A stretch of DNA of 64,000 bases from Halobacteriovorax sp. GTDB taxonomy: Bacteria; Bdellovibrionota; Bacteriovoracia; Bacteriovoracales; Bacteriovoracaceae. Every line of letters begins with the position of its first letter. The stretch's first letter is position 1. The notes under the pieces were generated by a model that saw only the letters and a list, made by a program, of their open reading frames with translations, was not told the origin of the DNA and did no database searches. This document shows, one piece after another, positions 47,670 through 50,221 of this stretch. Position numbers and translations under genes: made by a program. The stretch lies in contig PBIO01000014.1 of NCBI GenBank assembly GCA_002720865.1, positions 1,115,793 to 1,179,792 on the forward strand, given 5' to 3'.

Positions 47670-48161
47670 TTAGTAATTGCCAGATTTCAGCGCCTTAAAG
47701 ACGTTTAGACCAATATGACAATAACCGTCTGGATTCTTATCGAGGTATTTTTGGTGATAGGTTTCCGCATCAAAAAATTGATCGAACTCCTCTATAGTTG
47801 TAACCACTGTAGGTCCCATGGACTCAATTCTTTTTTGGCTAAGCTCTCTTTGCTCTTCTGTTGTTGGAAAGATCGCTGAGCGGTATTGAGTTCCTACATC
47901 GGGTCCTTGTCTATTTAGCTCAGTTGGATTGTGCATAAAGAAGAATGCGTCTAGGAGTCTTTCAAAGGAAATAATTTTAGAATCAAATTCCACTAGGACC
48001 ACTTCGGCGTGACCAGTTTCTTTTTTACAAATATCTTCGTAGGTTGGGTCGGTGGTTTGCCCACCCTGGTAGCCACAAGTTGTATTTAGGACACCTGGGA
48101 TTTGCTTAAACGCATGTTCAACGCCCCAAAAACAACCAGCTGCAAAACTTACTTTTTCCAT
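47670..48161 (-). CDS. msrA: Peptide-methionine (S)-S-oxide reductase
   Basis: Standard MsrA: the catalytic Cys10 is in FAAGCFWGVEHAF, followed by GVLNTTCGYQGGQTTDPTYE, VCKKETGHAEVV-like CKKETGHAEVVLVEFD and FFFMHNPTELNRQGPDVGTQYRS. It repairs oxidised methionine with thioredoxin. The start overlaps the stop of the helicase gene by one base, so it is translated with it. Confidence 0.95.
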   Translation of the reverse strand: MEKVSFAAGCFWGVEHAFKQIPGVLNTTCGYQGGQTTDPTYEDICKKETGHAEVVLVEFDSKIISFERLLDAFFFMHNPTELNRQGPDVGTQYRSAIFPTTEEQRELSQKRIESMGPTVVTTIEEFDQFFDAETYHQKYLDKNPDGYCHIGLNVFKALKSGNY

Positions 48162-50221
48162 TATCTTAAACTAATTTGAATTTTCTTATATCGACCATCA
48201 CCCATAGAAGTCGTTTTTACTTTTGCATCATCATGAAGATGTTGGTGAACAATTCTTCTTTCCGCAGAGTTCATTGCATTTAACACAACAGACTTATTAG
48301 ACTCTAGAACTTTCTCAACCATTTTATCAACCATGGCCGTTATTTTCTTTTCGTCAATCTTCTCTCTTTTAGAACCTCGTTCTCTTCCTTTAGAGCGATC
48401 ATCTTTACGCTCACTCCTGACTGGAGCGCCTTTTCCATAGCTCATATTGATTCGAACATTTCCAGGTAAATGAACTCTCGTGGTTATATAAACCTTAACC
48501 AGCTGCTCGTAAGCAAATAAAAGCTCTTTTTCATTTCTTGAGAATAACCTCTCATCATTTCCTGAGAAATTAATATTTATATCGTTTTTCTCTTTATTAA
48601 AGCTAACCTTTACGTAGACGTTTAATCTTGAAATCTTCACCATTTCCATTAGGAATGGAAGAAGAAGTTTTTTATAGATTGGCTTTAAAGTGAATTTATA
48701 GGTGGTCTTTCTTGGGCCAAAGAAAAAGAATTTCTTAGGGCCTTGTTTTAGAACATCCCACTGCAGAAGACTTTTATCATTTATTCTGTAATAGCCCATG
48801 GCATTTTGCCAGGCGTCCTTTAAGTCGGTGGTAGTTGTGACAAAGATTCTCTTATCATCAGAACTTTCACTTTTTACATACTCTGGAACTTCCATAAGTT
48901 TGTATTCTTTAAACACTGGAGGTTTACCTTCAAATTTTTCTTTTGGTTTATGATCTTTAGTGTTCCCTCGTTTATTATCTCTCTTGCGATCATCTCTTTC
49001 ACGAGGAGCATTACGATCAACAACCTTTAAAGTTTTATAATCAATATAAGGTTTTTTAGGAATATCTGTTGCGAAGCTATCATCTGTTAACTCCATCCTG
49101 GGAATCTTTGCATCGATTAGTTCAGAGATTGGATCTAAAAATTCACAGTCTTCATGGGCGCAAAAGCTTACGGCCTTACCATTTGCTCCTGCACGTCCTG
49201 TTCTTCCAATTCTATGCACATAGTTGGCTGCTTCTTGGGGAAGGTCATAGTTAACTACAAAGTTAACATCTTTTATGTCTAAGCCTCTTGCGGCAACATC
49301 GGTACAAACAAGGATGGTAACTTTCTTAGCTCTAAACTCTTCCATTAGGCGAGTTCTCTTATTTTGAGCTAATCTTCCCGAGATGGGTTTTGCTTTGAAG
49401 CCCATAAGGTTTAGCCATTCAGCCACGACATGAGTCATGAATTGAGTGTTGCAAAAAACTAGAGCGTAGGCATCTTCTTGATCTCTTAACATCTTAACTA
49501 AAAGAGGCATTTTTTCTTCACTTGTTACCATTGCAAGTGAATGATCAATATTATCTACCAGTAGGCTATCAACATTTAGTCTAAGCTCAACGGGATGAGA
49601 GCGAAATTTATAGGCCGTATTTAAAACATCCATATTACTAGTGGCCGATACCATAATGAGTTGGCGGTGATCCGACATTTTTCCTAGTGTGAACTCTATA
49701 TCTTTTTTAAAGCCCATATCAAAAAGACGATCTGCTTCGTCAAAAACAACGGCCTTTGTGTTTGTTAGGTCTACACATTTTTGCTTAATCAGATCGACAA
49801 GTCTTCCAGGAGTACAAATCAATACATAAGGATGTTTTTTTAACAGGTCCTTTTGGTTATCAATACTTTCGCCACCAATCAAACAAGTTGAAGTGATATT
49901 TAAAGGTGTCCCAATTTGTGTAAAAACTTTATGTGTTTGTTGAGCTAGTTCTCGAGTAGGGCTAAGAACAACATAGGCGACTTTTCTTTCTTCATTATTC
50001 ATTAATTCTTCATCGCGAAGAATCTGTTCAATAATCGGAATAGCAAAAGAGCCAGTCTTTCCGCTTCCAGTCTCTGCTTGAGCAAAGATATCCTTTCCTT
50101 CTAAAACAGGAGTAATAGTTAATTCCTGAACTGGGGAGGCGTTCTCGAATCCGATTCCTTTTAGGGAATCAAGTAGGGCAGGTTTGAGTTCAAACTCAGT
50201 AAAAGGTGTCGTAGTTTCCAT
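48161..50221 (-). CDS. DEAD-box RNA helicase fused to a Jag/KhpB-like RNA-binding module
   Basis: Residues 1-375 are a complete DEAD-box core: Q motif (FTEFELKPALLDSLKGIGFE), AETGSGKT, PTRELA, GG, TPGR, DEAD (161-164), SAT, and HRIGRTGRAG. After a charged linker (405-435) the rest looks like a whole Jag protein. A Jag_N-like segment spans about 460-512 (TDLKDAWQNAMGYYRINDKS, then GPKKFFFFGPRKTTYKF). A KH-like region follows at about 518-595. An R3H domain spans about 625-686, with Arg655-x3-His659 in NAMNSAERRIVHQHLHDD. I do not know this fusion from textbooks. It may remodel and chaperone RNA in one polypeptide. Confidence 0.88.
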   Translation of the reverse strand: METTTPFTEFELKPALLDSLKGIGFENASPVQELTITPVLEGKDIFAQAETGSGKTGSFAIPIIEQILRDEELMNNEERKVAYVVLSPTRELAQQTHKVFTQIGTPLNITSTCLIGGESIDNQKDLLKKHPYVLICTPGRLVDLIKQKCVDLTNTKAVVFDEADRLFDMGFKKDIEFTLGKMSDHRQLIMVSATSNMDVLNTAYKFRSHPVELRLNVDSLLVDNIDHSLAMVTSEEKMPLLVKMLRDQEDAYALVFCNTQFMTHVVAEWLNLMGFKAKPISGRLAQNKRTRLMEEFRAKKVTILVCTDVAARGLDIKDVNFVVNYDLPQEAANYVHRIGRTGRAGANGKAVSFCAHEDCEFLDPISELIDAKIPRMELTDDSFATDIPKKPYIDYKTLKVVDRNAPRERDDRKRDNKRGNTKDHKPKEKFEGKPPVFKEYKLMEVPEYVKSESSDDKRIFVTTTTDLKDAWQNAMGYYRINDKSLLQWDVLKQGPKKFFFFGPRKTTYKFTLKPIYKKLLLPFLMEMVKISRLNVYVKVSFNKEKNDININFSGNDERLFSRNEKELLFAYEQLVKVYITTRVHLPGNVRINMSYGKGAPVRSERKDDRSKGRERGSKREKIDEKKITAMVDKMVEKVLESNKSVVLNAMNSAERRIVHQHLHDDAKVKTTSMGDGRYKKIQISLR

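Follow-up and report, generated by a model that had tools for sequence, protein, structure and literature searches.

A fusion of a DEAD-box helicase with a Jag/KhpB module in Halobacteriovorax and its relatives

Results

The fusion gene and its helicase core

The window, a stretch of 64,000 nucleotides from a Halobacteriovorax sp. genome (contig PBIO01000014.1), contains a gene at 48161..50221; this gene and all the window features given below are on the minus strand. The coordinates agree with the initial annotation. The gene starts with ATG and encodes 686 amino acids. Domain and profile searches, together with homologues in at least 35 genomes of the family, identified the product as a fusion of a helicase with a Jag/KhpB module. 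The helicase core, consisting of RecA1 and RecA2 (residues 1-378, 49088..50221), was delimited by Pfam and motif alignment, with matches to DEAD (E 7e-44) and Helicase_C (E 3e-31). The Q motif, AETGSGKT, PTRELAQQ, DEAD, SAT, ARGLD and HRIGRTGR were all intact, and their residues were invariant among the 18 homologues aligned; the DEAD motif itself occupies residues 161-164 (49730..49741). With the Q motif and motifs I, Ia, II (DEAD), III (SAT), V and VI present, the protein belongs to the DEAD-box family, as had been claimed. The best NCBIfam match of the helicase was CshA, with 358 bits, below the cut-off of 646 for that model. The fusion would be expected to have RNA chaperone or helicase activity.

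The core is followed by a basic disordered linker (residues 405-451, 48869..49009), which had pLDDT values below 50 and a positive net charge in 38 of 38 aligned rows. The full-length model had a pTM of 0.41, at which contact between core and module is not firm.

The neighboring msrA gene (47670..48161) overlaps the helicase stop by one base (TAATG). Co-translation of the two genes had been proposed. The overlap in the window is consistent with this, but both the adjacency and the overlap were found in the window's genus only. Because the linkage is confined to the genus, it carries little functional information, and we rejected co-translation with msrA as a clue to function.

Domains and fold of the Jag/KhpB module

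The C-terminal part of the protein comprises a Jag_N domain, a type-II KH fold and an R3H domain, in the order seen in Jag/KhpB. Profile and fold evidence agreed on this arrangement, which is conserved in at least 35 genomes, confirming the assignment in the initial annotation. The Jag_N domain (residues 459-512, 48686..48847) was recognized by Jag_EloR and by the homologue profile, and adopts a beta-alpha-beta-beta arrangement in the model. The KH region (residues 516-595, 48437..48676) was recognized by the homologue profile against the PDB, the predicted structure, Foldseek and VIA. The R3H domain (residues 624-686, 48164..48352) matched Pfam over residues 627-684 (E 3e-13). Its R655-x3-H659 motif is exact in the window protein, and the Arg and His are invariant in 45 of 45 fusions.

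When the window protein was searched alone, Jag_N and KH had no Pfam match, and the homologue profile was required to detect them. The NCBIfam model Jag_EloR matched the window protein in two stretches with 64 bits, under the equivalog cut-off of 145. In the genome search with the same model, two stretches of one frame matched Jag_EloR positions 7-122 (Jag_N and KH, E 0.003) and 142-202 (E 1e-12). Pfam searches of individual homologues found R3H in 22 of 22 and Jag_N in 10 of 22. A module profile built from the C-terminal thirds of 22 homologues matched the Jag structure 3gku in the PDB at positions 6-215 of 215 (E 1.4e-28), and covered KH-R3H of Thermus thermophilus KhpB (E 5.5e-15). The profile searches therefore did not fail on Jag_N, KH or R3H, since the whole of 3gku was matched.

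The predicted structure of residues 454-686 had a mean pLDDT of 85. The top Foldseek matches in the PDB were 3gku (E 1.6e-16) and T. thermophilus KhpB/EloR (9lrg/9lri, E 1.5e-8). VIA aligned 3gku_A with model residues 4-233 (Z 11.6, rmsd 8.1 across 202 residues). Structure prediction, suggested as a check on the C-terminal part, thus agreed with the Jag assignment. We read the high overall rmsd as a sign that the domains are probably placed differently relative to each other in the model. The R3H structures 1msz and 2lrr of eukaryotic IGHMBP2/Smubp-2 were also among the profile or Foldseek matches of the module.

Distribution of the fusion

A survey of taxa for the same domain order, also suggested initially, showed that the fusion recurs. 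The stop-free fusion frame was present in at least 35 genomes, all within the family, with 44-97% identity to the window protein. It was carried by 35 of 59 family genomes (about 60%) and missing from 24; among the well-assembled ones these numbers were 24 and 17 of 41. Among the 17 named records of carriers are Halobacteriovorax marinus isolate 36_234_T64 and Bacteriovorax sp. BSW11_IV, together with many Bacteriovoracaceae/Halobacteriovoraceae MAGs. In the 291 genomes of the phylum surveyed, R3H in frames of 648-778 aa occurred in 41 genomes, solely of the window's family, and the R3H frames of other families measured 148-331 aa with one exception. That exception (L129:3-1427, genome G224) is an R3H domain ending a 474 aa P-loop ATPase, unlike Jag, in a genome with 7% contamination listed. 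A scan of 84,980 species was run with peptides of the window protein, a search that distant, independent fusions would escape.

Family genomes without the fusion had no orthologous core, and R3H was also absent where tested, except in G057 and G046. These two encode the module without the helicase, as a 245 aa protein in G057 and as two frames behind an arginine-rich leader in G046. The leader of the G046 Jag (L127:2110-3116) is rich in arginine and glycine, and the split frames stem either from decay of the gene or from a sequencing error. Fusion-carrying genomes showed no second R3H protein.

The yidC-mnmE locus

The window genome (4.9 Mb, completeness estimated at 100%) has no second R3H protein above the cut-off, and its sole R3H lies in the fusion gene. 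A check for jag beside yidC had been proposed; yidC and mnmE are 1 base apart in this genome with nothing between them, and a stand-alone jag is absent. Across 25 loci of the family, the two genes are direct neighbors in 24 (the window genome's own and 23 of 24 others, the latter spaced by -10 to 43 bases); in the remaining locus, L155, no mnmE was found downstream of yidC. In the other families of the phylum, jag lay between yidC and mnmE in 20 of 20 loci, in a gap of 463-1344 bases. The fusion is thus not a stand-alone gene at this site; Jag/KhpB has moved from the side of yidC to the tail of a helicase in one mostly predatory family. The MnmE of the window genome (L067:3908-5332) has a Gly/Pro-rich insert, GPIGPGFKIGPIGPKQGGPIEPLKP.

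The KH surface and KhpA

The position of GXXG, the loop through which a KH domain contacts RNA (residues 562-565, 48527..48538), reads RNEK in the window protein and GKRG in 3gku. In the alignment, GXXG was found in none of 45 fusions and none of 20 stand-alone Jags from the phylum, and the final G was kept in 17 of the 20 stand-alone Jags versus 7 of the 45 fusions. The pneumococcal EloR KH binds KhpA through a contact between L239 of EloR and I61 of KhpA (PMC6403258). By alignment, Leu574 (48500..48502) is the equivalent of these residues in the KH-KH dimer contact, and each of the 45 fusions has a hydrophobic residue (L, I or V) at this position.

The window genome also has KhpA, which is usually the partner of KhpB; its gene follows ffh and rpsP, and its GKQG loop is intact. 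This 79 aa protein (L005:1489-1728) shows mostly 76-99% identity in the family, far above that of the Jag module. Nearly all family genomes encode KhpA, and it is equally frequent where the fusion is missing, so its co-occurrence with the fusion gives no support for a partnership and was dropped as an argument. From the aligned residues we infer that the KH may now dock KhpA rather than grip RNA. The "self-contained" chaperone of the initial annotation is doubtful in view of the missing GXXG and the separate KhpA with its GKQG loop, which make a two-protein complex at least as likely. The loss of GXXG with retention of the KhpA contact amounts to a testable statement on the purpose of the KH domain of KhpB.

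Origin of the fusion

In the phylogenetic tree the helicase cores of the fusions group as a single clade (support 100/99), which joins unfused helicases of other families in a larger group (100/96). The nearest relatives of the fusion cores are unfused helicases, most with RG-rich disordered tails. In those examined from other families (L180-L186, L188), most RG-rich tails lead into a conserved motif at the terminus that resembles KVSGFFKKLF and may be an amphipathic anchor. One branch (97/83) separates the family's Jag modules from the other Jags of the phylum. The simplest reading would be a single fusion in which the tail of an existing helicase was replaced.

Mapped on the yidC-mnmE tree, presence of the fusion requires 8 changes, and well-supported branches force at least 4 of these; for example, G070 has the fusion and its sister G011 has none. 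Repeated loss is the simplest reading of this scattered pattern, and transfer may also account for it. Since the two deepest family branches both lack the fusion, it may postdate them. The stand-alone family Jags L127 (G046) and L128 nest among the fusions, and a fusion clade excluding both was not rejected by the AU test (p 0.22). The modules of G046 and G057 may be pre-fusion intermediates or fusions that later lost the helicase. With about 60% of the family carrying it, and repeated loss, the fusion is an accessory trait; because 24 of 59 family genomes lack it, the core functions of the family do not depend on this gene.

Discussion

KhpB/Jag is widespread, its mode of action is unsettled, and natural fusions often expose working partners. 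The gene described here joins two known kinds of protein in a genuine and conserved fusion that is accessory in its family, and we found no published description of a helicase-Jag/KhpB fusion in the literature searched. The module shares with Jag/KhpB/EloR (3gku, T. thermophilus 9lrg/9lri and Streptococcus pneumoniae EloR) the domain order, the R3H Arg and His, and the hydrophobic residue at the KhpA contact. It differs in sitting behind a helicase, away from yidC, and in the absence of GXXG, which is already eroded in the stand-alone Jags of the phylum. IGHMBP2/Smubp-2 likewise has a helicase and R3H in one chain, but its helicase is of superfamily 1 and it is without Jag_N or KH. The complete core motifs are common to the CshA, RhlE, RhlB and DbpA helicases, whereas the tail here is a Jag module rather than an RG-rich one. 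In DbpA or CsdA the C-terminal tail is RRM-like.

KhpB binds many RNAs (PMC12542702), and RhlE1 and KhpB have been reported as components of the mycobacterial RNA degradosome (PMC10641625). In that assembly, with RNase E, RNase J and PNPase, helicase and KhpB are separate polypeptides; here one gene encodes both. The fusion ties KhpB to a DEAD-box helicase, in line with the presence of both in mycobacterial degradosomes, and suggests that two normally separate proteins share a job on RNA.

Judged from the domains and their conserved residues, the likeliest function, which we consider reasonably probable, is that of an RNA-remodelling helicase tethered by the KhpB module and acting with KhpA. 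The R3H and Jag_N domains would bind the normal RNA and protein partners of KhpB. The KH without GXXG would serve mainly as a dimer surface for KhpA, which would bring an intact KH. Through the flexible basic linker, the ATP-driven core could unwind or clamp structured RNA near the tether. The outcome might be aid to decay, or remodelling of sRNA and mRNA where Hfq is not found, and an association of the RhlE1-KhpB type would have turned covalent. An RNase E/G protein is encoded in the window genome. Hfq had no match in that genome, and none was found above the cut-off in 33 genomes of the phylum, fusion-carrying or not.

A less likely but still plausible explanation is that the Jag module is a generic RNA-binding tail that replaced an RG-rich one, with KhpA pairing and envelope control lost and a role in ribosome assembly or general unwinding of structured RNA, as for RhlE or CshA. 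The RG-rich tails at the same place in related helicases fit this explanation, as do the loss of GXXG, the accessory nature of the gene and the retention of KhpA irrespective of the fusion. However, all three Jag domains were kept in order and the KhpA-contact position stayed hydrophobic in every fusion, and a plain RNA tail needs neither Jag_N nor that surface. The module might instead substitute for KhpB in envelope or elongation control, the role of pneumococcal EloR, with the helicase half as a carrier. This appears improbable: it agrees with the lack of a second R3H protein in fusion genomes and with the two family genomes that retain the module without the helicase, but the helicase motifs are invariant and many family genomes live after losing both halves. 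That mis-assembly or a mis-read frame merged two genes has nothing in its favor and next to no likelihood, and is refuted by the conservation of the same stop-free frame across genomes and named records.

Returning to the tethered helicase, we tentatively suggest a wider role, which we consider less probable than not. The fusion may be a family-specific remodelling machine, in which the built-in KhpB gives target specificity and the KH has turned to docking KhpA, and which might serve as the principal matchmaker of sRNA and mRNA, or as the principal initiator of decay, in a phylum whose searched genomes yielded no Hfq. If true, this would provide natural fusion evidence that KhpB cooperates with DEAD-box helicases across bacteria in general. 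The fusion opens a direct test of KhpB guiding helicases, both in cultured Halobacteriovorax and in model species for KhpB.
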